Source: Aliiruegeria lutimaris
GTDB taxonomy: Bacteria; Pseudomonadota; Alphaproteobacteria; Rhodobacterales; Rhodobacteraceae
Assembly (NCBI RefSeq): GCF_900099935.1
Contig: NZ_FNEK01000020.1
Span: forward strand, 1 to 64,000
Direction: 5' to 3'
DNA: 64,000 bases
Shown here in pieces: positions 1,026 through 32,019 of this stretch (its first letter is position 1; every line of letters begins with the position of its first letter). A program made the position numbers and the translations under genes. Under the pieces are notes generated by a model. That model saw only the letters and a program-made list of their open reading frames with translations. It ran no database searches and was not told the DNA's origin.

Positions 1026-1713
1026 CCGGTTGTTGGGCTCAGGGTTGGCTCGTGACGGATGACCGTATTGTCCGTTGACCCGCCTTCTCTATGAACCGCC
1101 GCCAAGGTCCAGTTCTCGTTCAGCCTGCCGGAAAGGATGCGGCGAGACTTCAGTTGCTGCGATCGGTTGAATCGGCACGGCAAAGCTGCCGTTAGAGCAG
1201 CGGTCGGCGAAGTCGTCGGCTGCGCGAGCGGTACAGGTCCGCTCACTGCGCATAGCGGACACTGGGGTTCCGAGTGCATAGTCCGCTGTGAGAAACTTCC
1301 GGACCTTTGTCTCGGATCATTCAACCGTCGTGACTGGCACTGACCTGGTGTTGCACGGGCATCTCCCAGGCCGCGCTGCCGCATTTCGAATCCGGTGCAA
1401 ATAGATGAGCGCAACGCGCGAAGTTCTGATCGTTTACGGCAAATTAAAATAGCAACTTGGGATGCGTATTTCCGTGCTGTTTCTGGTACCAGGGCCAATA
1501 ATCCAAAAAGAATTTGAGGATTGACTCGCCTGCAAAATAAATATCTCCCAAGTGACAATTCCGACAGTCCAAAGGAATAGCTACAAATCGCCCCGAGTGA
1601 GAAAAATCGGTATTTTTCTGGTATTTATCAGTGTGGGTCCGATCCGGGCCTATATACTTGTAGCTATGAAAATGCCCGCAGGCACGCGGACAGGCAAAAA
1701 TGGGGAGAGGCTC
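1026..1713. other. Intergenic region with no supported gene
   Basis: Open frames here on both strands lack family similarity and have weak starts. The stretch contains degenerate GTCCGCT/AGCGGAC inverted repeats of the kind often left in Roseobacter intergenic DNA. Its last 150 bases must hold the promoter of the multiheme cytochrome operon. Confidence 0.4.
1600..1619. promoter_or_regulatory. Inverted repeat upstream of the cytochrome operon
   Basis: AGAAAAAT and ATTTTTCT form perfect 8-bp arms around CGGT, about 95 bp before the start of the octaheme cytochrome. Position and symmetry suggest an operator. No regulator is encoded nearby, so the protein that binds it is unknown. Confidence 0.4.
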
Positions 1714-2952: not shown

Positions 2953-2985
2953 CCTCCGGTCGAACCTGAAAAAACGGAGGTCATC

Positions 2986-3639
2986 ATGCTCATTCGCCTG
3001 ATAGTGCGGGCGGCAATACTGGCCCTCTTGTTCGTCCAACCACTGGCGGCGCAGACAGCGCCGCCAACAGAAAGCAACCTGAAAGGTTCGGGCTACTTCC
3101 GCGATCAGGACACTCTGCCGGGGTCCTACCGGTTGTACCTGCAGCAGCCCAGTAAACTGGATTGGTTGTCTTCTGTCGGTCCAGTCCAGGAAAAGGTGAA
3201 GAAGTCATCTTTCACGACAGACGCGCACGAGGGCGTCGCCAACTACTCTCCGCGCCGCCAGTGCACGGAGTGCCACACGAACCATTCGCGGGATCTGCAT
3301 GTCTCGCGCATGGAGGTGCGCTGTACCCAGTGTCACCGCGATACCCCCATCGCCGGGATATACCACTATTACTCGGCAATGAACCCGATCCGGCGCCACG
3401 CCTACGTTTGCGCCAAATGCCACGAGGGCGCGACGCCTTCATTTGCATCCTACGTGGTGCATGAACCGAACCCACTTGCAATGGAAACCCGGGAAAGCTT
3501 CCCGGCCCTGTTCTACGCAACCTGGTTCATGGTGATCCTCGCGGGCGGCGTTCTTGCCTTCTTCGTACCCTTGGCGGTGCTCTGGGGATTGCGGGAGTTC
3601 ATCTCGGTCGTGAGAGGGAGGTTCAGTCATGGCAGCTGA
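2986..3639 (+). CDS. Membrane-anchored triheme cytochrome c
   Basis: 217 aa. An N-terminal signal peptide (ends near PLAAQ) is followed by a periplasmic domain with three CXXCH haem sites (CTECH, CTQCH, CAKCH) between about residues 93 and 146. A single C-terminal membrane helix (about 175-205) is followed by a basic tail. GGAGG lies a few bases before the ATG. The gene sits 33 bp after the octaheme cytochrome and overlaps the cytochrome b gene by 11 bp. It most likely carries electrons between the membrane cytochrome b and the soluble octaheme protein. Confidence 0.82.
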   Translation: MLIRLIVRAAILALLFVQPLAAQTAPPTESNLKGSGYFRDQDTLPGSYRLYLQQPSKLDWLSSVGPVQEKVKKSSFTTDAHEGVANYSPRRQCTECHTNHSRDLHVSRMEVRCTQCHRDTPIAGIYHYYSAMNPIRRHAYVCAKCHEGATPSFASYVVHEPNPLAMETRESFPALFYATWFMVILAGGVLAFFVPLAVLWGLREFISVVRGRFSHGS

Positions 3640-10612: not shown

Positions 10613-11914
10613 ATGCCAAAGATCGCCAAAGAGATGACAGCCCTCGACCTGAAACGCCTCAAATACCCGCTGGAGGAAATGCAGTCGCGTCGCAAGGAGG
10701 GCGACAACCGCCCCTTGCCGCCCGTAGTGCAGTTCGCGGGCGGTGTGGCGGGGCTACAGGTCCAGATCACGGCCAGCGGGTCGAAGAGTTGGCTCCTGCG
10801 CACCACCATTGCGGGTAAACGCCGGTCTGTGGGGCTGGGCAGTTACCCGGAGGTGAGTTTGGCCGAGGCCCGTGACCGGGCGCGGGAAATGAAGAAGCTG
10901 ATCCTTGACGGGGTGGACCCGATTGAGGAACGCAAGAAGAAGGCCAAAGCGGTTCGCCTTGAGCAACGTCGGGGGCTGACATACTCGGAGGCCATCGACG
11001 GGTGGATGAAGATCCACAAGTCCAAGTCAGAAAAGAACCGACAACTGACCCGGAACCGTCTGCGTACCTACAGCGAGGAAGCAGGACTAGGAAAGCTGCG
11101 GGTCGGTGACATCGACAAGCACATGGTCAAGGACGTGCTGGACCCCATATGGGCCACTAAAACAAGCACTGCTACTAGGCTACGTGAAGACATGAAACGC
11201 GTGTTCGCGTGGGCCATCGGGAACGACCATATGGCAGGCCCGAACCCGGCGGAATGGGTCGGCAATCTCGAATTCATGATGGAGGCCCCCGACACGAGGA
11301 AAGAGCATTACCCGGCGGTGCCGGTTAATGAGGCCCCCCGGTGGATGCAGGAACTGCGGAAGCGCGATGGCAACGGTAGTCGCGCCCTCGAATTCCTGGT
11401 GCTGACCGCCGCGCGTTCCGGTGAAGTCCGTGGAGCGCGTTGGAGCGAGATCGACCTTGAGGAAGGTTTGTGGACTATTCCGGCTTCGCGGATGAAGATG
11501 GGTCGGGAACACCGGGTGCCACTGTCTTCAGACGCCGTGGGCCTGCTGAAGAGCATGAACGGTGACGGCTCTGGTTTCGTGTTTTCGGCTGTTCGTGGTG
11601 GAGAACTTAGCAACATGACCCTAAGCGCGGCGATGAAGCGTATTCACGCGGATGACGAAAAGGGCTTTGTTGACGGCACCACTGGCAGGCCCGCTGTCCC
11701 TCACGGCTGGCGGTCGACCTTCCGCCAGTGGACTGCGGAGCGGGGTTTTGCCCGGGACATGGCGGAGATCGCGCTGGCACACGACGTTGGCTCCGAGGTT
11801 GAGCGCAGTTACCAGCGGTCGGACATGCTTGAACGTAGGCGAGCGATGATGGAGGAATGGGCCGCGCACCTTTTAGGGACTGTCGCCGGGGGCGAAGTTG
11901 TTCCACTTCACTGA
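10613..11914 (+). CDS. Tyrosine-type site-specific integrase (P4 type)
   Basis: 433 aa. The N-terminal DUF4102 arm-binding domain (about 25-105: VQITASGSKSWLLRTTIAGKR, VSLAEARDRAREM) is followed by a SAM-like core-binding domain and the catalytic domain. Catalytic residues are visible: Arg in TAARSGEVRGARW (about 265), HGWR (about 363), His in ALAHDVGS and the nucleophile Tyr in VERSYQRSD (about 400). Full length and apparently intact. This subfamily normally integrates at tRNA genes, in keeping with the tRNA-Gln-derived repeat upstream. GGAGGG precedes the ATG. Confidence 0.93.
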   Translation: MPKIAKEMTALDLKRLKYPLEEMQSRRKEGDNRPLPPVVQFAGGVAGLQVQITASGSKSWLLRTTIAGKRRSVGLGSYPEVSLAEARDRAREMKKLILDGVDPIEERKKKAKAVRLEQRRGLTYSEAIDGWMKIHKSKSEKNRQLTRNRLRTYSEEAGLGKLRVGDIDKHMVKDVLDPIWATKTSTATRLREDMKRVFAWAIGNDHMAGPNPAEWVGNLEFMMEAPDTRKEHYPAVPVNEAPRWMQELRKRDGNGSRALEFLVLTAARSGEVRGARWSEIDLEEGLWTIPASRMKMGREHRVPLSSDAVGLLKSMNGDGSGFVFSAVRGGELSNMTLSAAMKRIHADDEKGFVDGTTGRPAVPHGWRSTFRQWTAERGFARDMAEIALAHDVGSEVERSYQRSDMLERRRAMMEEWAAHLLGTVAGGEVVPLH

Positions 11915-13468: not shown

Positions 13469-14374
13469 ATGCTAGAACTTGAGGACCTATGTGATGCGTT
13501 AGGCGGTAAGTGGTTCAACGACTATGGTGTTGCACCGTGTCCTGTTTGTCAGCCATACGGCCCCGGTCACGGCAACATTGGCGCGATGCGGATGTATTAC
13601 GGCGAGCGCAAAGGCACCCCGGTCTTTAGCTGCTTCCGCGACGGCTGTCGGTGGGAGGATATCACCGCCCAGTTGCGCAAGATGAGTCTGTGGCCCCTGC
13701 GTAAATTGGAGCCTTGGGAAGCGGAAGAACTCAGCGCCCGCCGTGAAGGAAAACAGCGCGAGCGCGAAGTTGTAGCCGCCCGGATCTGGAATGAGACAAG
13801 CCCAGTTCCCGGTACGGTGGTCGAGACCTACTTGCGGCGGAGGGGCATTGACTGCGCTATCCCCGAGGCAATCCGATACCACCCGAACTTGTGGCATTCG
13901 CCTTCACAGCAAAAGTTTCCCGGCATGGTGGTTCGCACCCCTAAGGGCATACACCGGACGTACCTGACTCCAATGGGATACAAGGCGGAGGTTGACCCTG
14001 CCAAGATGATGCTTGGCCCCCCCGGACCGGTGAAGTTGGCGCAGAACAGCGATCGGGTTCTGATCGTAGCCGAAGGAATTGAGACCGCTCTGTCTACTCT
14101 GTCCGGTCACCTGTTGTCCCACTTCGGACCGGCCACGGTTTGGGCGGCGCTGAGCACTTCAACAATGGTGGGTATGGCCCCGCCCCAAGCTGAACCGGGT
14201 GACACGCTTGTGATCGCCGCTGACGGCGACCCAGCCGGGTTGGCGGCCGCCGATAGCCTAGCCCAAATCGCAACGGAACGGAAATGGCGCGTGTTCCATA
14301 GCCCGGCGCCGATGGGTCAGGACTGGAACGACGTGCTTAGGATGATGAGTTATGAAAAGCAATTCAGCCTTTGA
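13469..14374 (+). CDS. Toprim-domain primase
   Basis: 301 aa. The N-terminus has a zinc-binding layout (APCPVCQPYGPGHGN ... CFRDGC, about 25-58) typical of phage primases. A DUF7146-like middle (YLRRRGI ... AIRYHPNLWH) follows, then a toprim domain with LIVAEGIETALS (about 195-206) and the metal-binding VIAADGDPAGLAAA (about 251-264). It synthesises RNA primers for island replication together with the DUF3987 ATPase, whose start it overlaps by 23 bp. AAAGGAG lies just upstream of the ATG. Confidence 0.87.
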   Translation: MLELEDLCDALGGKWFNDYGVAPCPVCQPYGPGHGNIGAMRMYYGERKGTPVFSCFRDGCRWEDITAQLRKMSLWPLRKLEPWEAEELSARREGKQREREVVAARIWNETSPVPGTVVETYLRRRGIDCAIPEAIRYHPNLWHSPSQQKFPGMVVRTPKGIHRTYLTPMGYKAEVDPAKMMLGPPGPVKLAQNSDRVLIVAEGIETALSTLSGHLLSHFGPATVWAALSTSTMVGMAPPQAEPGDTLVIAADGDPAGLAAADSLAQIATERKWRVFHSPAPMGQDWNDVLRMMSYEKQFSL

Positions 14375-16407: not shown

Positions 16408-19146
16408 CTAGGCCCTCTTGCGAGATCTCAGTTCGACGCCTTCGACTGGTTCAGGTGCCCAACTTCCTTTAAAGAACAGAGACGTGGCCTCAGCGACCTC
16501 AGCGGTATCCGAATGCTCATGGGGAGATACTGGTTCTCCAATCTTCACCTTCACATACCTAACCTCATTCTCTCGACCAAGATTGACGTCAAGAAAATAG
16601 AGGTCTTCCCCATTCATCTGTCCCGCCAATGATCCAAGGCCCCAAATTAGGAGCGGTGTCAAAGAAAAAGCCCGTCCTGTTTCCAAATTCACAACATAAA
16701 CAAATTCTGGAGAAAAATCACCCTCACCGGAGTAGTCATACAACTCTGAAAATGGTTGGCTGGCGCCCTTGAACTCACGGAAAATTCCGGAGTGGCGACC
16801 AGAAAATCCGATTTTCCGTAGTGACTCAAAATTCCCAACCACGATATTTCTATGACTGTCTTGAACCAAGTTTCCAAGAAAAATCAAAACAGAACTAAAG
16901 TCGATATCTGCTGCCTGTCCGTGTTTGCCGCGGGCGACTCCCGATACGGTTGAATCAATTTGCTGATAAATGGGGTCATCTAGAAAACTCAACAGTCTCT
17001 CTGATAAGAGGCCTTCTTTTCCGGATTTTTTCAAAATTCTTGCCAGTTCTCGGATCTCTCGGAGCAACGGTCCCGCCGACCTTCGGAAGTTTCGATCAAG
17101 TGATACAGATCCCAGATCCATCTCAAGTGACCTAAATTCGCAGTAGCACACGAAACAAATGTAGGTAAGAAATGCCTCAAATGAATGCCTCCCACACTCC
17201 TTCAACTGGTGTTGATCTGTTTGCGCAACATAGTCACGCAGCGGACTGGAAAGGCAGTAGGGAAGGGCTTGTATCAACTCATTCAAATCTAGCCATGATC
17301 TATCAAATGCACGGGAAGATAAGGCTCTGACGTCGGCCTCACTAACCGACGAGACAGAGGATGTCGCGGTTCCAAAGTCTATCCCCAAGTATCCTTCAGC
17401 CAGGTTCGGCTCGGATGCAAAAGTCATGTCAAGAAAAAACGGTGCACCGACTACCCGCTTTTCTGAATCCTTCCCCTTGCCGTAGACAAATGTCGGTGAT
17501 GCCGTTCCATCCTCCCGGACAACAAGCTCGACCTCTATAAATTGGCCGTGTTTTGTTCCACGCGGCGTGTAGACCTTTTGGTCAAGAATGTTTTGAACAC
17601 AGTCTGTGTCAGTCGGATCAAAGCTGGATTTTAGAAAGTGATACTCCAAAAACTGAGTGGGACCGGAGTTCATTCGAGCCTTCCAATGCATAGGAGTATC
17701 GATGAAGGCACGAAGCCCAGACGCCGACGGTAGTAAGGTTCCTTTGTCTCCAGGAGTGGGCAGGCCGTCCGTTTGCGGCTTGAAGCTGCACCACTCAAGT
17801 TTCTTAGAGTCGGGTCGAAGTGACAAATTCAATCGGTTGTACGTCACAGCACCGAAATCGCCATCGTGCTGCTCCGTATAGAACCTTCTGGCACATTCTA
17901 TTGCAAGGCCCTTTGCAACCACTTCTTGATAGTTGTCAGAAATTTCAATAATTACCGCAGCACCCAACAACCGGCGCAAATCCGAGTCCACTAGTTCCTT
18001 AGTCCACCCGATGTTTGTGGATCCTCCAGAAAGGAGAACTACTGCAATTGGTTGCCCCTTCAGCTCATTTTTTGCTCGCTCTAAGCCTTCGGTCACCGCT
18101 TCTTGGAGATGGGCACGCCAAACTTTCTGAACAAAAATCTCCCTCAATCTATTCGCCCTTAATGATACCTCGATCCACGGCGAATCCGTCTCAAATGGTT
18201 GTGTTGGCACATTCACTAAGTATGAAGGTGCCCGCTCTAGGTTTGCAGAGAGATCCCAGCTCAGTATCGAATTGCAGATACTAACTTTTGCAGACTCCAC
18301 CTCGTCGACTAGCCGTCCGAAATTTCTTATGAAATTGACCTCTGCCGCAGTAAACCTTTGTTCATCCGTTTCAGTAAGACTTTGAAAGGAATCTATAGCA
18401 CCCAAAAGCTTTCGTGAGTTCTTTTTTACCCATTTATCTTCGATTGAATTAAACAGAAGATCTTCGGCAATCATTCGATTTATAAAAAAACCGCCAATTG
18501 GGATTGACTTTGCTGACAGTGGTTTTGAGTTCTTTCCGCTGAGGCTTATGTCGCCCTCCACTGTGGTTTCAATTACCGACACATCAAAAGTGCCTCCGCC
18601 GAAATCAAGGACTAGAGCTACGTGCTTTCGACCGGCGGTGAGTAATGGATGGCGGAAGCCGTATCTATAATACTGGAAGACTGCAAACGGCTCCGGCATG
18701 AAACCGACGTTTTCGAACTTATGTCCTAGTATCGTCTGTAGCGCGGAACGGTAATTGCTCAGCCATTGTCCGGATGCCTTTCCTTCCTCCTCTATTGAAA
18801 GAGGTTCAGCGATCAAAACGTGTGACGGCCTAGATCCACCTTGGCGGTCGACGTACGCTTCGACATCTATTAGTAGCCCCTCTATGAAATCCTTCGACAT
18901 TCCCAAGACAGATCTCTTGTGAGATGACGACACCTGCTGTTGGCGCATTGATGCCTGCTGCCTAGTCTGTCTACCAAGTTCGACTTTGAAATTCCTGTAG
19001 ACACGCTGTCCATTGTTGTTTTCCTGAGCATCCCATCCGATCAGTGGTTTCTTGCCGTCGTATGCCACTGCGGTTGGAACTGTGGGCGCGTTTTGTATGG
19101 GCACCGATTTGACTTGATTGATTACGAGGTTCTTTTTGGCCGACAT
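16408..19146 (-). CDS. Hsp70/actin-fold ATPase with displaced phosphate-1 motif
   Basis: About 912 aa. The N-terminus starts where Hsp70 proteins are normally just past the phosphate-1 loop (VPIQNAPTVPTAVAYDGKK, then LIGWDAQ). It carries phosphate-2 (VLDFGGGTFDVSVIETT, about 180-196) and the adenosine motif (VLLSGGSTNIGWTKELV, about 371-387). The missing phosphate-1 signature GIDFGTATSSVS appears at about 588-599, followed by some 300 residues of largely helical and beta sequence I do not recognise. The order suggests a circularly permuted Hsp70-like ATPase, or a second, degenerate actin domain. ATG 19146 is chosen as the nearest plausible start (AAGGA upstream, spacing long); the frame stays open to 19239. 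Composition is more AT-rich than the core genome, suggesting transfer. Function unknown; a role in island defence is inference. Confidence 0.7.
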   Translation of the reverse strand: MSAKKNLVINQVKSVPIQNAPTVPTAVAYDGKKPLIGWDAQENNNGQRVYRNFKVELGRQTRQQASMRQQQVSSSHKRSVLGMSKDFIEGLLIDVEAYVDRQGGSRPSHVLIAEPLSIEEEGKASGQWLSNYRSALQTILGHKFENVGFMPEPFAVFQYYRYGFRHPLLTAGRKHVALVLDFGGGTFDVSVIETTVEGDISLSGKNSKPLSAKSIPIGGFFINRMIAEDLLFNSIEDKWVKKNSRKLLGAIDSFQSLTETDEQRFTAAEVNFIRNFGRLVDEVESAKVSICNSILSWDLSANLERAPSYLVNVPTQPFETDSPWIEVSLRANRLREIFVQKVWRAHLQEAVTEGLERAKNELKGQPIAVVLLSGGSTNIGWTKELVDSDLRRLLGAAVIIEISDNYQEVVAKGLAIECARRFYTEQHDGDFGAVTYNRLNLSLRPDSKKLEWCSFKPQTDGLPTPGDKGTLLPSASGLRAFIDTPMHWKARMNSGPTQFLEYHFLKSSFDPTDTDCVQNILDQKVYTPRGTKHGQFIEVELVVREDGTASPTFVYGKGKDSEKRVVGAPFFLDMTFASEPNLAEGYLGIDFGTATSSVSSVSEADVRALSSRAFDRSWLDLNELIQALPYCLSSPLRDYVAQTDQHQLKECGRHSFEAFLTYICFVCYCEFRSLEMDLGSVSLDRNFRRSAGPLLREIRELARILKKSGKEGLLSERLLSFLDDPIYQQIDSTVSGVARGKHGQAADIDFSSVLIFLGNLVQDSHRNIVVGNFESLRKIGFSGRHSGIFREFKGASQPFSELYDYSGEGDFSPEFVYVVNLETGRAFSLTPLLIWGLGSLAGQMNGEDLYFLDVNLGRENEVRYVKVKIGEPVSPHEHSDTAEVAEATSLFFKGSWAPEPVEGVELRSRKRA

Positions 19147-19333
19147 GTTGTTGTGTTTTTCCTTAGTTCCGAGGAGGATGTTAGAATTGCCTACGGCAGG
19201 CGCAACCATCTTCGGCAGCGCGACGCATCGTTGAGACAAAAAGTGTCACATCAGATGAGCCCAAGGCGTCAGAGACGCGCTGTATGGAAACGGACCTATC
19301 ACGCGACGATCCGCCGGATCTGAAACGCTTTCG

Positions 19334-19545
19334 GCCTGCAACCACATCGTTCGGAGACCTTCAAACTCTCCACCGATCCGATGTTCGACGACAAGGTGCA
19401 CGACGTCGCCGAGCTCTACATGGCACCACCGAGCAGGGCTATCGTCTCGTGCGTGGATGAGAAATCCCAAATTTTGGCTCTGGACCGCGAGCAACCCGTC
19501 CTGCCCATGGCTCGCGGTGTGGCCGAGCGGCGCATCCAGCTTTTC
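19334..19545 (+). pseudogene. IS630-family transposase remnant
   Basis: The plus-strand frame reads LQPHRSETFKLSTDPMF, DKVHDVAELYMAPPSRAIV and CVDEKSQILALDREQP, which is the conserved middle of IS630 transposases including the first part of the catalytic VDEKSQ region. Start and C-terminus are missing, so it is a fossil fragment upstream of the Hsp70-like gene. Confidence 0.75.
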
Positions 19546-19835
19546 CACCAACGCTCAACAACCAATCAATCATCCCGTGAAGTAATAGACGCGGACGCAA
19601 CCACTTCACGTGGGACAGGTCAGCCCCGCCACCCATGGGTTAGAATCCTGTCCGACCAGTCTTCAGCGACCTCCGATCAGCAACACAGCAAGCCCAACCA
19701 TTTTCTAGAGAACAGTTCGTCACCAACCTACCCACCAAAAGCTCAAGTCACTGACGCCGAAATGCCGATCGATGTCGTAGCAAATGAAACTCATGCACAG
19801 ATCATTAAACCGTCAATCCGATCAATCACACCGGT
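19546..19835. other. Non-coding stretch between IS fragments
   Basis: No gene or family match is visible. The last eight bases (ACACCGGT) are the left target-site duplication of the adjoining IS66 derivative. Confidence 0.35.
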
Positions 19836-19920
19836 GTAAGCGGCGGTTCGGCCCCACGTTGTGGTGCCTGCGGCGCGCTGCGAGATCTTCTCCATCTCAT
19901 GATGGGGAGTGCGTTTCGCA

Positions 19921-20331
19921 ATGTGTTCGAAGAATTCGTTTCTCAGATCGGTGGGCGTCGAGATCTATGCGTCCGGGCACCGGCGGTGGCCGGATGACGT
20001 GAAGAGGCGGGTTGTTGCGGAGACACTAGAACCCGGCGCGACGGTGAATGCCGTGGCGGAGCGTTTCGACCTTCAGCCGAACCAAGTCTCGGCGTGGCGG
20101 CGGTTGGCGAAGCAGGGAAAGCTGGTTCTGCCGGCGCCAGAGGTCGAGGAGCCGGTCTTTGCGCCGTTGGTGGTGTGTGAGGTGGAGCCGGAGGAACCGC
20201 CCCGAGAGATGGTCCATAACGATGAAGGCATCCGGATCGTGGTTGGCGAGGTCAGGATCGAACTGGTGTCCGACACGCCCGCCAGACGTATTGCGGAGAT
20301 CGTCCGTGCGCTCGGTTATCGGCCATGCTGA
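19921..20331 (+). CDS. tnpA: IS66-family accessory protein TnpA
   Basis: 136 aa helix-turn-helix protein. RRWPDDVKRRVVAETLEPGA and VNAVAERFDLQPNQVSAWRRL form the transposase-type HTH; the C-terminus (IELVSDTPARRIAEIVRALG) is conserved in IS66 TnpA. ATG 19921 is preferred; a GTG at 19909 is also in frame. The stop overlaps the start of the tnpB remnant (ATGCTGA), as in intact IS66 elements. Confidence 0.75.
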   Translation: MCSKNSFLRSVGVEIYASGHRRWPDDVKRRVVAETLEPGATVNAVAERFDLQPNQVSAWRRLAKQGKLVLPAPEVEEPVFAPLVVCEVEPEEPPREMVHNDEGIRIVVGEVRIELVSDTPARRIAEIVRALGYRPC

Positions 20332-20492
20332 TGCCATCGCAGGGCGTGCGGGTCCTGGTGGCGTCGAAGCCGGTGGATTTCCGGAAAGGGCATGACGGGT
20401 TGGCGGCGCTGGTGCAGTCGGTGCTGCAGGAGGATCCGTTCACTGGCACGGTCGACGAACTGCTTCCATGGAACTTCAAACCGTCAAGTTGA
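20325..20492 (+). pseudogene. TnpB-TnpC fusion remnant of IS66
   Basis: 55 codons. The first 42 (GVRVLVASKPVDFRKGHDGL, then AALVQSVLQEDPF) are the N-terminus of IS66 TnpB. After FTGTV the frame continues straight into DELLPWNFKPSS and a stop, the C-terminus of TnpC. An in-frame internal deletion removed the rest of tnpB and nearly all of tnpC. Confidence 0.8.
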
Positions 20493-20593
20493 AGCCCCCG
20501 TGGCCTGCAGCCGACGCTTACACACCGGTTGTCCGGGCAGCAATTCAATAGCCGGTCCGAAAAAGTATCGGAACCAAGTCCGCGAAGCCCAGA

Positions 20594-20800
20594 ATTGTCT
20601 AGCGCGAAGGCATCGCCCCTTCCTACATGACCCGTGTCATGCGCCTAACTCTGCTCACTCCCGACATCGTCGAGGCGATCCTAGATGGGCAGCAGGGACC
20701 GGAGTTGACGCTGGTGCACGTACTGGAGCCGTTTCCGTCGGAGTGGAGCGAGCAGATCAAGCATCTTGTCGGTCGCGATGCCGATACCGGCCGTTCGTGA
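20594..20800 (+). pseudogene. Recombinase C-terminal remnant
   Basis: After an in-frame TAG (20600-20602) the frame reads REGIAPSYMTRVMRLTLLTP, DIVEAILDGQQGPELTL and PFPSEWSEQ, the conserved HTH-containing C-terminal segment of large serine recombinase-type proteins. The catalytic part is absent. A degraded mobile-element gene. Confidence 0.6.
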
Positions 20801-21137
20801 ACCGAGTGGCCGAGTTGAACACCCGGTTCAAGGAGCGTGGCGACATCGGCTCGACCCGGCTTTGGCCGGGGAATAGCCATCCCTGTGGTCGAGCTTCGCG
20901 CCAGTAGTTTCTCAGCAGTTCCAGCAGGGAGGGAGACAGCATCACGACCCGATCCTTACCGCCCTTGCCGCGCTCGACATGGATCAGCATTCGGTCACTG
21001 TCGATGTCCCGAACCTTGAGATTGGTAACCTCTGAGGCACGCAATTCCGCACCATGGCCAATACCAAGCGCTGCACGGTACTTGAGACCGGGCCCTGGTG
21101 CCGAGGCCAGAACCGCCGGGACCTCATCAAAGCTCAG
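20799..21137 (-). pseudogene. Tyrosine recombinase (IS91-associated type) remnant
   Basis: The minus-strand frame preserves APGPGLKYRAALGIGHGAEL, RASEVTNLKVRDIDSDRMLI, RGKGGKDRVVMLSP and ARPQGWLFPG: the first catalytic Arg region (LRASEV) and the conserved lysine hairpin. The N-terminal core-binding domain and the C-terminal HxxR...Y part are missing, so it cannot recombine DNA. It directly abuts the serine-recombinase remnant. Confidence 0.75.
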
Positions 21138-21154
21138 GCCCACATCAATACTCG

Positions 21155-21856
21155 TTACTCGAGGTGCAAGTTGCACGCAAAATTGCACTTCTTCTTGAGA
21201 CAACAATCCTGGCAAAGCGGATTTCTTGTCCTGCAGCTTAACGCCGCGAAATCCAACGTAGCCCAGTTAACTTGTACTGGCTCGTCACACCTCACTAACC
21301 AATGGGCCGCCTCTTGCAGCCACGGATCATGACGAATGTCCGCGAGTTTTCGAGGCCGTAGGTACCGCTCGATTACCCGAGCCATGTTAATGTCTACCAG
21401 CGGCCTCGGCTGACCGTGCTGGAAAAGAAGTATGGCGTTGGCGACGTATTGCCCGACGGCTGGCACCTGGGCGAGCTCGCTGGGTTCGGACGGGAATTGG
21501 CCGTCGTGCTCGGCGGCATAGGATGCCAACGCGCGAATAGAACGCGCTCTTCTCTTCCACAAGCCAATGGGTTTCAGAACACCCTCGAGCTCCCCTACCG
21601 GCGCTAGCGCAATCGCGTTCCAGCTTGGAAATTGAGCGAAGAAATTTCTATACATGCCCGCCACGGTTTCGGCGCGCGTTCGTTGTAGTAGAACCTCGAC
21701 GCAGATCTTCTCGTAGTCGCTTGCACCAGGGGAACGCCAGGGCAAGTCGCGTCCATTCTCTACAAACCAATTCAATAGCCGACTGCGAAGGTGCGAAATT
21801 CTTAACTTCTCGGACCTAGTTAGTTCGCTCGACTTCGAGAATCTAGCGCGCGGCAT
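21155..21856 (-). CDS. HhH-GPD DNA glycosylase, probable T:G mismatch (5mC deamination) repair
   Basis: 233 aa, MutY/endonuclease III superfamily. The helix-hairpin-helix (LAQVPAVGQYVANAIL) has Tyr137 where endonuclease III has its catalytic Lys and MutY a Ser; Tyr at this place is the feature of the archaeal thymine-DNA glycosylase Mig.Mth. The catalytic Asp is D155 (VDINMARVIERY). A C-x6-C-x2-C-x5-C iron-sulfur motif is intact (C208, C215, C218, C224). It lies 107 bp downstream of a C5-cytosine methyltransferase gene on the same strand. By analogy with Vsr and Mig.Mth it would excise T from T:G mispairs arising by deamination at the methylated site. Its 3' end adjoins IS debris. Confidence 0.8.
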   Translation of the reverse strand: MPRARFSKSSELTRSEKLRISHLRSRLLNWFVENGRDLPWRSPGASDYEKICVEVLLQRTRAETVAGMYRNFFAQFPSWNAIALAPVGELEGVLKPIGLWKRRARSIRALASYAAEHDGQFPSEPSELAQVPAVGQYVANAILLFQHGQPRPLVDINMARVIERYLRPRKLADIRHDPWLQEAAHWLVRCDEPVQVNWATLDFAALSCRTRNPLCQDCCLKKKCNFACNLHLE

Positions 21857-21963
21857 TTCTTGGCTCTTTTCATTTACCGGTTCCTCCGCGCTCTCAAGCG
21901 TCGACGTCTCGAACTTGAACTAGCTTGGCTGATCACCGAATCTTATTCACGCGAAATCGCCAA

Positions 21964-23460
21964 TCAACCGACGGCTTCCTCCAGTATTCGTCGAAAGTGG
22001 GCGCTGACAGCTTCTGCAAGACCGACAGGGACTGCGTTTCCGATCTGGGTGTACTTCGGCACTTCCCGGTCAAACACGCCCTCACGAGGGTTTCCAGCGC
22101 GCCGCAGCCCCCCGGTCGTGCGCTTTCCACGAAACTGGTACCAGTCGGGGAAAAGTTGCAGGCGCGCCCACTCACGAACCGTCGGAACGCGAGGTTGCGA
22201 GAAGTGAACATAGTCATCCGGGAGCGATGTCGCGGTTATGGTCGGCTCACCATTTCCCCAGCTGGCAGGGAGCAGCTTCTGGGCGAATTTCTTGGTCTTG
22301 AACTCCGCAGGTATCTCCCCGTTGTTTGCATGCATGGCGATGAATTTTGCAACGACTCGCCGATTGTGCCTGCTGTACTCCTGCTCCGTGAGCACGAGCT
22401 TCTTCCCACGCATCCAAGACGGCTTGGCCCGGAGACGGCGCTGGATACCCGTAAGCGGTTTCGGCGATGGGTAGGCAAACGTTTCGAGCTTTCCACGTGG
22501 ATACTCGCCGCTTCGTAGGAGCGCATCCACCTCGGGATCCACCAGGTCGCCAAGCAATTCTTCAAGGTGCGGGAACGAGTTTGCGCGTGGCGCCGGCAGA
22601 AACCCCGCTTCCACGGCATCGCCCTTGCGCAAAACATCCGCGCCGTTGAAAGTCGTTGGTTCCAGGAAACTGCAAGCTTCAAACACGTCGTTGCGTATCC
22701 CAACGACGAGAACCCTTGGCCGGTTCTGGGGAACACCGTAATCCTTGGCGTGCACCAGCGACCAGCGAACCTCGTAACCCGGGATTGCGCGGAAGCATTT
22801 CAGCACGTCGGGAAAGATTAGCTCGCCGCCCGACTTCGTCCACTTGGCATGCAAAAGACCTCGGACATTTTCAAAGAGGAAAATGCGCGGTCGCAGTTCC
22901 TCGATGATATGCGCCATTTGCTCGTAGAGCTGGTTTGAAGGAAGCTCTTTTTTGTCAACGTCGTATGACCTGCGTATGCCTATTCCAGAGAAGCCTTGAC
23001 ACGGCGGGCCACCGGCCAGCACGTCGATGTTGCTCCCGCCTCCCTTGGACCAAGTCCTCGCGCGCTCCTTCGAATAGCCGAGCTCGGGAAGCGCCGCCAA
23101 GTCCGCCTCCAGTTTGCACAGGCGGTTGTCCACCAGCTCGTGAGCATCCTTGCAATGCAGGTCTTCGTTTTCGGCGAAACGCATGCCGCCGAGACTGTGG
23201 TGACGGTTCGCCAAGTAGGTTGCCCGGGCATCATCGTTGAGTTCGTTTACGAACACGGGGGTAAAACCCGAGTTCTCGAATCCAAGCGACAGGCCACCGC
23301 AGCCGGCAAAAAGATCCACCATCGAGAGCAGGCGATCTCCACCGCCTTCGCGCGTCGGGTTGTCGGCGTCATCGACCTCGACACCTTGGAAGGAAGTATT
23401 GTCTGGCAAGTTGTTCACATTTCCCCCTGGGTCTCGGCCGATTCCCTGACCTCTGACCAT
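21964..23460 (-). CDS. DNA (cytosine-5-)-methyltransferase
   Basis: 498 aa with the canonical C5 methyltransferase motifs in order: I DLFAGCGGLSLGF (49-61), IV GGPPCQGFS with catalytic Cys154, VI FLFENVRG (Glu197), VIII QNRPRVLVVGIR, IX VPTVREWARLQLFPD and X QIGNAVPVGLA. The target-recognition region lies between VIII and IX. ATG 23460 gives the longest protein; a GTG at 23418 preceded by AGGGGG is an alternative. It would protect the host sites recognised by the adjacent MvaI/BcnI-like protein, a family whose known members read CCWGG or CCSGG. Confidence 0.92.
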   Translation of the reverse strand: MVRGQGIGRDPGGNVNNLPDNTSFQGVEVDDADNPTREGGGDRLLSMVDLFAGCGGLSLGFENSGFTPVFVNELNDDARATYLANRHHSLGGMRFAENEDLHCKDAHELVDNRLCKLEADLAALPELGYSKERARTWSKGGGSNIDVLAGGPPCQGFSGIGIRRSYDVDKKELPSNQLYEQMAHIIEELRPRIFLFENVRGLLHAKWTKSGGELIFPDVLKCFRAIPGYEVRWSLVHAKDYGVPQNRPRVLVVGIRNDVFEACSFLEPTTFNGADVLRKGDAVEAGFLPAPRANSFPHLEELLGDLVDPEVDALLRSGEYPRGKLETFAYPSPKPLTGIQRRLRAKPSWMRGKKLVLTEQEYSRHNRRVVAKFIAMHANNGEIPAEFKTKKFAQKLLPASWGNGEPTITATSLPDDYVHFSQPRVPTVREWARLQLFPDWYQFRGKRTTGGLRRAGNPREGVFDREVPKYTQIGNAVPVGLAEAVSAHFRRILEEAVG

Positions 23461-23621: not shown

Positions 23622-24377
23622 CTAGATTCTCAGGAGGTCAAGGCTAGGCGAAGATGGAAAAAGCGCTTCCACGTTACTTGGCTTGATCTTGAACAGCGGG
23701 CCTTTTTCAACGGTCTTTCCACCGCGGTCGGTGATTAGGTGATCGACCGTAACGGTTCCGGTCTCTAGCAAGCGGCCCAATTCACTTGCACGTGGCCGAG
23801 CCGTGAACGTGACATACCGGTAGTGAAAATAGTCCTGGCCATCGTGTTTGCTGGGAACCGCAACGATCCATGCCGATGCTGGTTGCTTTTGGATCAAGCG
23901 TTGCTCGAGATCCGACATGTTCCAAGCAACGAGGTCTCGCACTCCCGTTTCTGGCAAACTTTGCTTTTCGCGCAGCCAACCATTGGCATGGTCCACCTCG
24001 AGAAACAGGCCTTGGCTGTTCGGTATCCTTGCACGTACCGTGCAATTCAAGCGTCGCTCCCCGTCTCGATCGTATCCGCACCGGTCAAGTAGTTCTCGGG
24101 TGCTCTTGCAAGCACTGATGCCCCAATCCGGGACCTTTGCAAATAGGTTGACCCGGTTCAAATCCTTGGCCTTGCTACCCCGCCTAGCGGTTATCACGAT
24201 TCCCTTGTATTGGGCTTTTGAAAGCGATGTCATCGGCACGTCGAGATCGTGGAGCAAGGTCACTCCCACGCTCGTGTCGCCATGGCCCATTGCTGGCACC
24301 GGCCCCTTGCCAGCCAAGGACTTCAGCTTTTGGAGCAACTCCTGTGCCTCGGGCTCAAGCGATCGAATTTCTTGCAT
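23622..24377 (-). CDS. MvaI/BcnI-like restriction protein lacking catalytic residues
   Basis: 251 aa. Long family signatures are clear: NRVNLFAKVPDWGISACKS (74 on), IPNSQGLFLEVDH, FHYRYVTFTARPRASELGRL and EKGPLFKIKPSNVEALFP. In active relatives, as I recall them, the N-terminal part reads GDTGVGRTLEHLL ... PDYKGIELKS, with E, D and E-x-K at the active site. Here these places hold Leu42, Gln56, Val61 and Thr63 (GDTSVGVTLLHDL; KAQYKGIVITARR). The fold and DNA-reading part look intact but hydrolysis is doubtful. It overlaps the helicase gene stop by one base, so it belongs to the same operon and may be the sequence-recognition subunit for the Mrr-helicase. Confidence 0.8.
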   Translation of the reverse strand: MQEIRSLEPEAQELLQKLKSLAGKGPVPAMGHGDTSVGVTLLHDLDVPMTSLSKAQYKGIVITARRGSKAKDLNRVNLFAKVPDWGISACKSTRELLDRCGYDRDGERRLNCTVRARIPNSQGLFLEVDHANGWLREKQSLPETGVRDLVAWNMSDLEQRLIQKQPASAWIVAVPSKHDGQDYFHYRYVTFTARPRASELGRLLETGTVTVDHLITDRGGKTVEKGPLFKIKPSNVEALFPSSPSLDLLRI

Positions 24378-26044
24378 TAAAAGTCCTCTCCACCCGGGAA
24401 GCGCAAACGAGCACCGTCTTCGGCGTCTTCAACGTCCGCGACATCCGCGAGGTACTTGTTGAAGAATTCGGCGGGTTCATCGTTATCGAACTTCACGATT
24501 TCGCCGTCTCGGTACCGCACGATCTCTATGCCCGAACCTTTTTCCTCGGCGTCGCGGTTCATCGACAAGCCAGCGGCAAGTCGCCGAATGTCAGCAACGA
24601 AATCGAGCACTAGAACCCGGTCCTTTTTATCGTTCACCCTCAGCCCGCGGCCGAGTTGCTGTAAGAAAATACGCCGACTGTGGGTTACCCGCATGAAGGC
24701 CACCAAGTTGACATCCGGCACGTCGATGCCTTCGTTGAGCATCTCGATCGAGATCAGCAGGTCGATCTCACCCATGCGGAACGCCGAAAGGTTCTTGAAC
24801 CTTTGTTCACGTGGCAACCTGCTATGCATCAGCGCGGCTCTTATTCCTTGCGCAGAGAATAGTGGCCTAAGGCGCTCTGCGTGCTCAATGGAGCGGCAAA
24901 AAGCCAAGGCGCGCGGGTCCGGCATTTCAGCCATTTTCTCGCAAATGGTCTTGACCATCGCGAGGTCGCGCTCCGGAACAAGCAGTTTTTGGTTGAGGTC
25001 CTTTATAGTGAAACCTTGCCGAGATGCCCGGGAAACTTCCTCCCAGTCGATCCCGTCGGTGAGCATCCGGTAGTCGACTTCCGCCAAGAACCCGCGCTGC
25101 ATGCCATCAACGATGTCCATGGAGAACGCCGGGTCGCCGAACAGCTCGGTGATATCCCTGTTATCTCCGCGCCAAGGGGTCGCTGTCAGCCCGACGAGGA
25201 AGTTTGGTTCCAGCCTTGCAATCAGGCTGCTGAAGCTCTCGGAGGGAGCGTGGTGAGCCTCGTCCACGATCACCAGGCCAAATCTACCGGCTAGGTCATC
25301 ACCTCGAGCGATCGCCGAGCTAACCGATTGCCACGTCGCGAATACGACGCCGCCAGGGTATGCGGGTCGCTCGCCATCCGTCCAAACGTGCGTAGAACAG
25401 TCCTTGGGCAGCTGCGCCCAACTCGAGACTTCCAATTGCTTAACCAGGTCACTCATGTGGGCCATGACCAAGACTTCTTGCCTTGGGTTCCTGGCGAATT
25501 CCTGCGCGACGAGCTGGTTGGCAACCATGGACTTTCCTAGCCCCGTTGCCATCAACACGAGCGCGCGGCTGTCGCCCCGTCCCCTCTTAGCCTCTACCGT
25601 GTTGATCGCCTCGTGCTGGTAGTCCCTCGGTTCGCGCCTCTCCATCGAAACCGATGGCAGTTGATCGTAGAATTGCAGCAGGTGGTTTCCATTCCAGGCA
25701 CGCAGGTCGATGCCGGCGTTTTCCTGCGCTTTAATGAAGTCGTAGGCGCCCGGGTAGAATTCCTGGTTGGTCGCCGCGACCGCCGTGACCGCGTCGTACT
25801 TCCCGAGGGCCCATGCGGCTTCTCTTGCGCCTGCCTCGTCGACACTTCCGTGCGTGCGGTATTTCGCTTGGAATACCCACCTTTGTCCCTCCATGACACC
25901 CACGACGTCTGCGCCATGGTCGCCCGAACCGCCGACGAGGGCCACGTCCTCGAAGCCAGCGTGCTTCGCAAGTCGCGCAATCATGCGCTCGAATGCCTGC
26001 CACGGCCCATACGCCAATCTTTCAACGCTTACGAACCCGGGCAT
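24377..26044 (-). CDS. Mrr-like nuclease fused to SF2 (DEAH) helicase
   Basis: 555 aa. Residues 15-62 form an Mrr-type PD-(D/E)XK nuclease: FERMIARLAKHAGF, GGSGDHGADV with Asp46 and QAK (59-61). From about 140 a superfamily 2 helicase follows: Q-motif RDYQHEAI, Walker A ATGLGKS (166-172), DEAH (261-264), motif III TATPWRGD, and motif VI QQLGRGLR. It abuts the GHKL ATPase gene with no spacer and overlaps the MvaI-like gene by one base. This is the likely DNA-cleaving and translocating subunit of the system, similar in design to the Mrr-helicases seen beside MORC-type ATPases in restriction islands. Confidence 0.88.
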   Translation of the reverse strand: MPGFVSVERLAYGPWQAFERMIARLAKHAGFEDVALVGGSGDHGADVVGVMEGQRWVFQAKYRTHGSVDEAGAREAAWALGKYDAVTAVAATNQEFYPGAYDFIKAQENAGIDLRAWNGNHLLQFYDQLPSVSMERREPRDYQHEAINTVEAKRGRGDSRALVLMATGLGKSMVANQLVAQEFARNPRQEVLVMAHMSDLVKQLEVSSWAQLPKDCSTHVWTDGERPAYPGGVVFATWQSVSSAIARGDDLAGRFGLVIVDEAHHAPSESFSSLIARLEPNFLVGLTATPWRGDNRDITELFGDPAFSMDIVDGMQRGFLAEVDYRMLTDGIDWEEVSRASRQGFTIKDLNQKLLVPERDLAMVKTICEKMAEMPDPRALAFCRSIEHAERLRPLFSAQGIRAALMHSRLPREQRFKNLSAFRMGEIDLLISIEMLNEGIDVPDVNLVAFMRVTHSRRIFLQQLGRGLRVNDKKDRVLVLDFVADIRRLAAGLSMNRDAEEKGSGIEIVRYRDGEIVKFDNDEPAEFFNKYLADVADVEDAEDGARLRFPGGEDF

Positions 26045-28372
26045 CTACGCCTTCCAGGACTCGAGCAGCTTGAGCGAAGCGAGCGCACGCGCGAACCTCA
26101 AGCGCCAATCAAGGTCCTTGTTCAGGGCGGATGCCCCGTCGTCCACCAGCCACGTCGCGTCGTTTAGGCCCTCTATGACTTGCATCACCGAGTCTTCTCT
26201 TTGGTCCGGCGAGAGGTGTTCGTAAGGCCGGTCGAAATACGCGCCATCCATGACGAGCTTCGGCCATCCTCGAACCAGTTCGGCCAAGTAATCCTCGGAA
26301 ACGAAGCGGGCGAACTCGCCCTTGCGGACAAGTTCCTCGACCTCGCCCGGCGAAAGGGAAGCAGACTTGTATGCGGACCGCTTGATGTTTTCTAGCTCAT
26401 GCTGTGACAATTGACCCGGTTCGATGGGCGCGGCGCCGGGGAGCTTCTCGTCGAGGAAGAGCTTCAATCCTTCAAGGAGGTTGGACGCGGCACTAGTGGC
26501 ACGCGACACGTCACCCGCCTCTTCGGGGAAGTATTTTTCTCGCAACATTCGGCTTACCCGCGAAACTGGAAAGTTTCTCGGCGTTTCGGCGGACAAGGTT
26601 AGAAAGTGATGTGCCAAATCGACCAAGAGGTAATCAGCGGGTGTAACCACGCTTTCTTCGAAGTAGGGGGATGACGCGTTGTAATCGAATCGGAAAGTGT
26701 ACCCGTCCGGCTTCACGCGGAAAGGCTGGCCATCGAGGTCAGCCTTGTGGCGAAAGGCCGAAACCTTGACGACGACATCACCGGGCAATTCAGAAAGCTC
26801 GTAACTCTGGGAGAGCGATAGATCCGGTTCAGGTTTCGACGTGCTTGGCTGCTTGCCGTCTACCGGTGCATCCCCACCTCCCTGTGGATCGGGCTTTCCG
26901 CCCGGATCGTCGATGTCGGTGGTTGTCTTTTTCCCAGCAATCGGGAATTTGCCGGCGAACTTGTCGGCACCACTTCCACCGCCTCGCTTGGCCCTTTCCG
27001 CTTGCTCGACGAGTTCGTACCACTTGTCGTCTTCCTGGAACTCGGGATCACCCTCGTAGAACTTGTCCACGTACTCCTTGATGAGGCCTGAGTTGAGCCC
27101 GGTTCCCTCGGCTGTTCCCGGGACAAGAGCCGCGAGGCCTGCAGTGCTTTTTCGATAACCCGTGAACAGGCGCGCCATGGGGCTATCGTTCTTGGCCATG
27201 CCCATGCGAGTCGCGACTTGAGGCTGCATGGGCGATGTCCCGCGGACGAGCTCGACAACTTTTTTCCACTCGGGATCGAGCTTGTCGAACGAATCCTTCT
27301 GGTGCGATACGCGAACGAAATCGATCTCGAGTTCACCAACTATACGACCACCCCAGTGGATAGCGTCGATCGGGTACTCCAAGAAAGAGCCCCCGTCGAC
27401 ACCGCGAAAAGTGAAAAAGGACTTGTCCAGTTCCTCGATTACGCGCCCGTTTCGTATCAGGTCGATCCCGAATTTTTCCTTGTCGAAGTACCTCTGGATC
27501 CCGAGCCATCCTTTCAACCGCCTGGTTCTCTTGACGACGTTCTCATCGTGTCCACAGGCCGAGCACTCGTCCTCGTTCTCGAGTAGCCACACCCAGCAAT
27601 TCGAGCAGAATTTCCGGGAGTCGAGCGTCTTGTCGATCTCGATCCTGGCCGGGACCCTACCAAAGGCTTGTGTTTCAACCGACCTTGTCTCGCTCCAGAC
27701 GCAGTGCTTCATGGGCTTCACGACGTCACCGTCGTAGTTCAGCTTGATATCAAGCCGCTGCATGACGCGCCCGTAGATCTTGCCGAGCCGGTCGCGCGTT
27801 CTTTTCTTTCCGATACCCCAGATTAGCGGGCGGACCCGGTCTGCCTCGAGCCTCGAGATCTTGATCTCGGTACCGTGAACACCGTCCGCAATTTCTTTCT
27901 CAGACTTGGCTCGCGTTTGAACCGGGGCAATAAATGTCTTTTGCTTTTCCAAGAGGTCAAAGTCTATGACGAGGCCAATCCACTCGGGATCTTCCGGCCG
28001 CGTCGTCCAGACCTCTGTTCGCCTGCCCATCCGCGCCGTTGAAATGTTGAAGCCCATCCCGAACAGGCCCATTTTCTCGACCGGGTCGTTTCCCGAGTAC
28101 CCTGCCCTAACGGCGTCCTGCAGTGTTTCAATTGACATGCCGATGCCGTTGTCGAGCACGGAGATTTCCCCATTACCGGCCTTTAGCTCGGGATCGCTGG
28201 GCAGACGGATCCAAATCCGCGGATCAGTGGCGGGCTTGCCATCGCGGGACTGGTCGATAAACGCGTCTATTGAGTTGTCGACGAGTTCTGCCAGGCACTG
28301 CCAAGGAGCAAAGTCAATTTGCCCCAGCATCCTGAGAACCCTCGGTGACGGCGTGATATCGACTGTTGTCAT
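26045..28372 (-). CDS. MORC-type GHKL ATPase with central zinc ribbon
   Basis: 775 aa. GHKL motifs are complete: N-box ELVDNS (29-34), G1 DNGIGM (74-79), G2 GLFGMGF (100-106) and G3 HGTEI (164-168). A zinc ribbon (C254, C257, C268, C271) splits the S5-like region, and the C-terminal 250 residues are helical. ATG 28372 is preferred to the upstream in-frame start because GAGGGAG lies just before it. It is the first gene of the operon and abuts the Mrr-helicase gene. Bacterial MORC-like ATPases linked to restriction genes are thought to clamp or loop DNA in an ATP-dependent manner; that role here is inference. Confidence 0.85.
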   Translation of the reverse strand: MTTVDITPSPRVLRMLGQIDFAPWQCLAELVDNSIDAFIDQSRDGKPATDPRIWIRLPSDPELKAGNGEISVLDNGIGMSIETLQDAVRAGYSGNDPVEKMGLFGMGFNISTARMGRRTEVWTTRPEDPEWIGLVIDFDLLEKQKTFIAPVQTRAKSEKEIADGVHGTEIKISRLEADRVRPLIWGIGKKRTRDRLGKIYGRVMQRLDIKLNYDGDVVKPMKHCVWSETRSVETQAFGRVPARIEIDKTLDSRKFCSNCWVWLLENEDECSACGHDENVVKRTRRLKGWLGIQRYFDKEKFGIDLIRNGRVIEELDKSFFTFRGVDGGSFLEYPIDAIHWGGRIVGELEIDFVRVSHQKDSFDKLDPEWKKVVELVRGTSPMQPQVATRMGMAKNDSPMARLFTGYRKSTAGLAALVPGTAEGTGLNSGLIKEYVDKFYEGDPEFQEDDKWYELVEQAERAKRGGGSGADKFAGKFPIAGKKTTTDIDDPGGKPDPQGGGDAPVDGKQPSTSKPEPDLSLSQSYELSELPGDVVVKVSAFRHKADLDGQPFRVKPDGYTFRFDYNASSPYFEESVVTPADYLLVDLAHHFLTLSAETPRNFPVSRVSRMLREKYFPEEAGDVSRATSAASNLLEGLKLFLDEKLPGAAPIEPGQLSQHELENIKRSAYKSASLSPGEVEELVRKGEFARFVSEDYLAELVRGWPKLVMDGAYFDRPYEHLSPDQREDSVMQVIEGLNDATWLVDDGASALNKDLDWRLRFARALASLKLLESWKA

Positions 28373-28559
28373 TGGCTGCTCCCTCTCGTGGCGTGTTTTC
28401 AATTTCTTATTGTGGCGGCCAATGGAACTCTAGGCCGACCAATCATTTTATGGTTGCACCAAGTTTCCAGCTCGCTGGGCTTCACGGGGTCGGCCTGTCA
28501 ATGCATATAGATTGCCGGGAATGGACCTGTCACGGTTTGATGCCGCCCCAAGTTCTCAT
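28373..28559. other. Upstream region of the defence operon
   Basis: No gene is present. The promoter for the leftward five-gene operon should lie here. Confidence 0.4.
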
Positions 28560-31944: not shown

Positions 31945-31958
31945 TGGCTGGGGTGGTA
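31945..31958 (+). repeat. Putative right attachment site within tRNA-Gln
   Basis: TGGCTGGGGTGGTA, the 3' end of tRNA-Gln, matches 10434-10447 exactly in direct orientation. Together they bound about 21.5 kb that contains the integrase and island genes. Confidence 0.65.
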
Positions 31959-32019
31959 GGATTCGAACCTACGATACACGGTACCAAAAACCGCTGCCTT
32001 ACCACTTGGCTACACCCCA
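31945..32019 (-). tRNA. tRNA-Gln (anticodon TTG)
   Basis: Reading leftward from 32019: acceptor TGGGGTG, D-arm, anticodon loop TTTTGGT (TTG), T-loop GTTCGAATC, acceptor strand CACCCCA, discriminator G and encoded CCA. All stems pair. Its last 14 bases are repeated at 10434, so it is the probable integration target of the island and has been kept intact. Confidence 0.96.

Follow-up and report, generated by a model that had tools for sequence, protein, structure and literature searches.

The 64,000-nucleotide stretch analysed here (the window), from Aliiruegeria lutimaris contig NZ_FNEK01000020.1, contains on its minus strand a gene encoding an Hsp70-like ATPase in which the phosphate-1 (P1) motif lies in the C-terminal part of the chain. 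P1 normally comes first in the chains of Hsp70, actin, and related proteins. The open reading frame (ORF) at 16408–19239 begins with a TTG and runs for 943 codons; as start we picked the ATG at 19146, which gives a protein of 912 amino acids (aa), since it matches the start region of the homologues. The protein contained the phosphate-2 (P2) motif DFGGGTFDVSV at residues 181–191, the adenosine motif GGSTNIGW at 374–381, and P1 GIDFGTATSSVS at 588–599, approximately 210 residues past the adenosine motif and with 313 residues remaining. An original prediction, made from the DNA letters, had described this order with a gap of about 200 residues before P1 and about 300 residues after it, and the 912-aa ORF bore it out. 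Pfam matched the protein to HSP70 (PF00012) over just 21 residues around P2. The gene was divided into the following parts, in which NBD and SBD denote the nucleotide-binding and substrate-binding domains of Hsp70:

16411..19146, minus strand: coding sequence of the permuted Hsp70-like ATPase, 912 aa, start placed by homology
17881..19146, minus strand: Hsp70 NBD without its first hairpin, residues 1–422 (profile residues 18–66 against DnaK 31–79; 11–422 against YegD-like 24–415)
18985..18987, minus strand: Lys54, K in 26 of 26 members and aligned to K of DnaK
18691..18693, minus strand: Glu152 in PEPFAVFQYYRYG, E in 26 of 26 members (profile alignment)
18583..18606, minus strand: P2, DFGGGTFD, residues 181–188 (family alignment)
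18013..18030, minus strand: adenosine motif SGGSTN, residues 373–378 (family alignment)
17395..17880, minus strand: beta-rich domain, residues 423–584, in the place of the Hsp70 SBD-beta (DSSP of the model, Foldseek ranking)
17332..17394, minus strand: transposed P1 beta-hairpin, residues 585–605, with GIDFGT at 17368–17385 (alignment, profile alignment, model)
16411..17331, minus strand: C-terminal domain without known relative, residues 606–912, helices and then a beta sheet (separate model of 605–912)

Homologues were sought in plasmids and in genomes. A tblastn search of plasmids matched three records. Two, from one Bradyrhizobium barranii strain (H1 and H2), encode a 910-aa protein that is 41% identical to that of the window and shares its starting residue; the third, from B. 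japonicum USDA 123, has a broken copy. These plasmid copies were annotated only as hypothetical protein. In the order sample, 8 of 390 genomes matched, namely that of the window, G369 (46% identity over almost the full length), and six others with weak matches, whose open frames of 424–440 aa had a DFGTSN-type P1 close to the start and which we take to be YegD-like proteins. The class sample gave 2 of 385 genomes, the window's own and G765 (49% identical to the Bradyrhizobium protein), and the phylum sample only the window's own among 398. An earlier scan of genome contigs with a single protein as the query had found no relative, whereas an alignment-based scan of a species-genome collection (84,980 species) yielded 28 loci, one of which, L016, is the locus of the G369 match. 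Twenty-three of these were intact and full length, and L031 was without its 5' part. Internal stops or shifts were present in the other four (L026, L028, L040, and L041), which suggests rapid gain and loss. Together with the window, L002, and G765, the 23 intact loci gave 26 full-length proteins from five phyla: Pseudomonadota, Verrucomicrobiota, Thermodesulfobacteriota, Nitrospinota, and Acidobacteriota. The family is rare and scattered. Phage records contained no match to it; among viral contigs, one search found none and another gave two distant Hsp70-like matches.

All three motifs of the Hsp70 superfamily (ASKHA ATPases, Hsp70 branch) were present in all 26 full-length members, and in the family alignment every one of them had the order P2, adenosine, P1 in place of the usual P1–P2–adenosine. 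Because the protein is a relative of Hsp70 by sequence and yet breaks its defining motif order, we call it a permuted variant. Gly588, Asp590, Phe591, and Gly592 were invariant, residue 593 was Thr in 24 members and Ser in two, and the pattern GxDFG[T/S] was found near residue 588 throughout. With start codons picked near the homologous position, some of them GTG or TTG, the 26 proteins began 21–30 residues ahead of the invariant Pro24. The loci had been retrieved with the patterns [DG]F[ML]PEPFA and VFQYYRYG, both of which precede P2 in the chain; a relative with the ordinary motif order that carried both could therefore also have been retrieved. There was none among the 24 of the 28 loci that were judged: P1 was C-terminal in the 23 intact loci and in the 5'-incomplete L031, the four broken loci being left out.

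Profile alignments gave the same order. When the family profile was searched against PDB sequences with hmmsearch, DnaK (2v7y) ranked first with an E-value of 2.6e-5, and its aligned stretches were in permuted order: profile residues 589–612 matched DnaK 4–27, 18–66 matched 31–79, 173–194 matched 158–179, and 307–395 matched 245–330. The N-terminus of the protein had been proposed to begin just past the P1 of Hsp70, and this was the case; the NBD of residues 1–422 starts at about DnaK residue 28–31, with the cut after about residue 27. We then compared the profile by hhalign with seven YegD-like proteins (one from the genome of the window and six from its family) and with the DnaK of the window's genome. 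In native order, residues 11–422 aligned with YegD-like 24–415 (score 138.4, E 8.7e-17), and a separate second alignment joined 589–609 to 6–26 (E 2.6e-6). Moving the P1 block (580–615) to the front produced one colinear alignment covering YegD-like 4–415 of 416, with a score of 180.8 and an E-value of 2.4e-22, whereas 53 control blocks moved likewise, none overlapping P1, scored 138.3–138.4. Against DnaK the scores were 52.6 in native order, 77.6 with P1 first, and 52.6 for the controls. The controls were redone in this form because two blocks of an initial set of 43 overlapped P1, one of which had the highest YegD-like score in that set, 184.9. The rise in score for the P1 block only, together with the retention of one order by the homologues, upheld the circular permutation claimed in the original prediction. 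The colinear alignment and the Foldseek matches to Hsp70 described below account for a complete Hsp70 NBD fold.

Asp590, Lys54, Glu152, Asp181, and Asp188 were conserved in all 26 members, and residue 186 was Thr in 25 members and Ser in one. We take the five invariant residues to correspond to D10, K71, E175, D199, and D206 of Hsc70, Lys54 presumably being the counterpart of the catalytic lysine in Hsp70 subdomain IB and Glu152 that of the glutamate in NEPTAAA. Judged from the alignment, the N-terminal and C-terminal portions of the chain together conserve what one ATPase site would need, and a single chain would have the full catalytic set only if the P1 of the C-terminal part came together with the N-terminal core.

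In a model of the full-length protein built with 25 aligned sequences, residues 585–590 and 595–602 formed strands. Foldseek ranked Hsp70/DnaK chains containing NBD and SBD-beta first (5obv, E 3.7e-17, among the top 50 matches listed), and it is by this fold rank only that the beta domain of residues 423–584 sits where SBD-beta would. Residues 605–912 modelled alone reached a predicted local distance difference test score (pLDDT) of 89.4 and a predicted template modelling score (pTM) of 0.91, and this model had no match in PDB or BFVD at E≤0.001, thus none to the Hsp70 lid either. The C-terminal domain of the window protein matched nothing in Pfam at E≤0.1, and the C-terminal domains of 25 members gave two isolated weak families, each matching single members. 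A likeness of the domain profile to nanobodies (best E 0.0057) was weak and was taken as chance. The conserved features of the domain are RSAGPL, KH, and FG.FE. The models support an ATPase core joined to a new C-terminal domain, as had been anticipated.

The gene lies in an island with the following features:

10613..11911, plus strand: tyrosine integrase (Pfam Arm-DNA-bind_3, Phage_int_M, Phage_integrase)
13469..14371, plus strand: Toprim/DUF7146 primase-like gene (domain scan)
21158..21856, minus strand: HhH-GPD protein adjoining the cytosine methylase gene (domain scan; type II nicking endonuclease in PADLOC)
21967..23460, minus strand: C5 cytosine DNA methyltransferase (domain and PADLOC scans)
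23625..24377, minus strand: MvaI/BcnI-family restriction endonuclease (domain scan)
24380..26044, minus strand: Mrr_cat and ResIII helicase, type IV restriction-like (domain and PADLOC scans)
31945..32019, minus strand: tRNA-Gln(ttg), beyond the island genes (tRNA search)

A gene for a 785-aa GHKL (HATPase_c_3) ATPase at 26045–28402 directly adjoins the Mrr-ResIII helicase gene, both on one strand, and the two may form a two-gene restriction system. The Loktanella copy (L012/L016) is near the same kind of tRNA-Gln (L012 5501–5575) and has three flanking genes in common with the window; the genes shared at the two tRNA-Gln borders include, by eye, a kdsA-like gene and an ABC transporter. The tRNA-Gln site is an integration hotspot that the two genera, members of one family, have in common; a search of the window gave no further copy of the tRNA-Gln end. 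The Tropicimonas copy (L015, 11264–13674) adjoins an HhH-GPD protein and, by eye, a cytosine methylase, as in the window at 21158–23460, making a shared restriction module possible. The integrase, restriction–modification genes, and tRNA-Gln of the window, and the plasmids, TnsB-type element, and defence genes found with relatives, agreed with the proposal that the gene is island cargo.

Neighbouring genes were scanned with PADLOC, singly and pooled. The singly scanned set comprised 30 neighbours, six of them from the window, covering 16 of 31 loci; a match at E≤1e-25 was called strong, and TnsB of L021 was left out of account. A defence-type gene was near the permuted gene at 9 of the 16 loci: the window, L002 (ZacA, B, and C), L017 (a methylase), L032 (SspF), L037 (the Ppl model), L020 (the HEC-05 model on a GmrSD-like protein, and a cytosine methylase), L036 (DUF4297 and HerA), L035 (HmaA and HmaB), and G765 (BrxA and BrxC). 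At L018, L019, L021, L025, L029, L039, and L042 there was no match or a weaker one (DndB at 5e-23 in L039; PDC-S02 at 1.2e-14 in L042). The pooled set held 112 of the 115 nearest neighbours (at most four ORFs of at least 200 aa per locus, within 5.5 kb; three oversize ones were excluded) and matched 86 families at E≤1e-25, 25 of which were listed; one neighbour may match many families. As a control, 100 proteins from 20 arbitrary places in five genomes gave 14 families, once each (methylases, RtcR, WYL). No McrB or McrC homologue was named among the singly scanned neighbours.

In L035 (6468–15759), the permuted gene has an operon-like placement between HmaA and HmaB, 23 bp past the former and with a 4-bp overlap with the latter, and HmaC is found downstream at 822–3290 of the 159,317-bp contig. 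The broken copy L041 (7227–13202) has an HmaA-like neighbour, assigned by clustering, at the same spacing, and this layout looks like an extended Hma system. In G765 (L054:9284–18883), the gene lies 261 bp ahead of brxA of a BREX operon on the same strand, BrxA and BrxC having been tested. The broken copy L003 has neighbours annotated as DrmD and N-6 DNA methylase. In the two Bradyrhizobium plasmids, a small ORF (L002:14727–15038, L003:12974–13351) overlaps the stop of the permuted gene by 4 bp and by eye resembles the start of a DrmD-type helicase. The Dechloromonas copy (L021:5996–9487) adjoins a TnsB-type gene (tested) and genes that by eye resemble TnsA and TnsC, and is probably cargo of a Tn7-like element.

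Among known proteins, the YegD-like Hsp70 proteins, whose whole NBD aligned with the permuted protein after the P1 move, have open frames of about 424–464 aa with an N-terminal P1 (DFGTSN) in ordinary order, and contain neither the beta domain insert nor the C-terminal domain. DnaK and other Hsp70s (PF00012) share with it the catalytic Asp, Lys, Glu, Asp, and Asp, the three phosphate and adenosine motifs, and a beta domain after the NBD; the permuted protein differs in its order, and neither an SBD sequence nor a lid can be recognised in it. HmaA and HmaB around the permuted gene in L035, with HmaC on the same contig, connect it to Hma by PADLOC models, but it is an extra gene matching none of the three. 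HmaC was rejected as a name for the family, as there was no HmaC match at E≤1. The only PADLOC match of the window protein at E≤1 was PDC-M61B (E 0.0017, around P2), and a search with PDC-M61B gave no match in any of 200 genomes or of 14 controls and was hence uninformative. The nearest published defence parallel found is in the CoCoNuT systems, where CnuD and similar proteins combine Hsp70-like NBD/SBD with HEAT-like repeats and are fused to or lie beside McrB/McrC parts (PMC11090510). Those proteins, too, are tied to prokaryotic restriction and defence, but the authors of that paper expect them to hydrolyse ATP very weakly, whereas the permuted family retains its catalytic set, and the main text of PMC11090510 does not mention permutation.

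Taken as a whole, the observations are probably best explained by a natural, circularly permuted Hsp70-type ATPase whose P1 enters the core of the same chain and which we read, from its context, as a switch of defence islands. The order along the chain, that is the rest of the NBD, the beta-rich domain in the SBD-beta position, the P1 hairpin, and the C-terminal domain, was fixed in the 26 members. The P1 hairpin would insert into the N-terminal core and supply the opening strands of subdomain IA, so that ATP binding and hydrolysis would proceed as in Hsp70, and the beta domain would span from the core's old C-terminus to its old N-terminus. Lobe closure on ATP would pull the strand bearing the C-terminal domain, so that the nucleotide state would reach that domain. 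In anti-phage defence islands the protein could use ATP to act as a sensor or a remodelling switch, either by itself or together with an Hma-type helicase and DNA methylase; the role in defence is suggested more weakly, by the neighbourhood. It is quite possible, and we put it forward tentatively, that the P1 hairpin is a covalent bridge from the SBD-like beta domain to a new output domain, wiring the ATP state to a defence effector and making an immune switch of Hsp70.

Immediately upstream of the gene in the window are transposase remnants at 19381–20907 (IS630 and IS66 type, named by eye), so it had to be tested whether an ordinary Hsp70 had been cut at its 5' end, the C-terminal GIDFGT being a second, unrelated motif. 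Transposase-like genes were seen by eye close upstream of the L013 and L015 copies as well. Against this, the other 25 full-length members start in the same region, P1 at residue 588 is invariant, and there was no P1-like motif upstream of the window start in three frames. In the intact copies from the 28-locus scan, the reading frame stayed open for just 0–52 further codons upstream, without P1, and L002 likewise had no coding P1 upstream. A scan for P1 in three frames of the 600 nucleotides upstream at 26 loci gave a single match, SIDVGS in L019, which was read as chance because it lies past an in-frame stop (15 open codons upstream there). Truncation is implausible because the cut would have hit the same codon in five phyla; the homologues in these phyla rule it out, and we give it next to no credence. 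Some other families have actin-fold domains in duplicate, and the C-terminal P1 might likewise start a separate second domain of this kind. No conserved P2 or adenosine motif was seen past P1 in the family alignment, however, and P1 opens no second actin fold since the high-confidence model of the region after it has no PDB or BFVD match at E≤0.001; the model and the PDB search rule this reading out, leaving it a very slight chance. Both of the outcomes named beforehand as pointing to another origin, a P1 encoded upstream in the homologues and a separate complete actin fold around the C-terminal motif, were thus absent, the one from 26 members and the other from the C-terminal part.

Several points weigh against a permuted, self-contained defence switch. 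Three of the four DnaK 2v7y stretches had i-Evalues of at least 66 and the fourth, the best, 0.36, so that significance came from the sum only. HMMER scores of the column-reordered profile were not raised but fell by 0 to 1.8 bits; HMMER adds hits whatever their order, which accounts for the flat scores. The full-length model was middling (pLDDT 78.7, pTM 0.63), and the beta domain had no sequence match to the DnaK SBD in the profile alignment. The data are also compatible with a domain-swapped dimer, in which the order is truly permuted and each P1 fills in the core of an adjacent molecule within an obligate dimer or filament. The long beta domain (423–584) between core and P1 could permit swapping, and actin-fold relatives often assemble. 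There was nothing positive for swapping, and because the end of the Hsp70 NBD and the start of P1 lie close together, an intramolecular join requires no swap; we consider swapping unlikely. As to the defence link, the control places were unmatched for taxon or mobility, the singly scanned neighbours were picked by eye, several copies (e.g. L023, L024, L027, and L030) had no defence gene noticed by eye, and neighbour clustering found no gene accompanying the family at most loci. The protein might accordingly be a housekeeping chaperone of mobile elements, concerned with replication, transfer, or protein folding, near defence genes only through shared islands. This is favoured by the lack of a widely conserved neighbour, by the location of copies on a pair of conjugative plasmids and next to an integrase or a TnsB-type gene, and by the four broken copies among 28. 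The placement between HmaA and HmaB and that ahead of brxA speak against it, and we regard it as a serious though somewhat doubtful alternative.

The preferred explanation, a natural permutation with P1 in the same chain, concerns proteins that are easily missed, given their annotation as hypothetical proteins and the 21-residue Pfam match. No description of a natural permuted Hsp70 was found in the portions of the open literature covered, including those of PMC11090510, PMC12458937, PMC8624234, PMC1079889, and PMC5561102. The existence of a natural family whose P1 comes late in the chain suggests that an N-terminal P1 is unneeded for the conserved catalytic site, and offers a natural test of how lobe motion is coupled to appended domains. 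If the defence link is true, prokaryotic immunity would gain an ATP-driven chaperone-type switch and a new domain.

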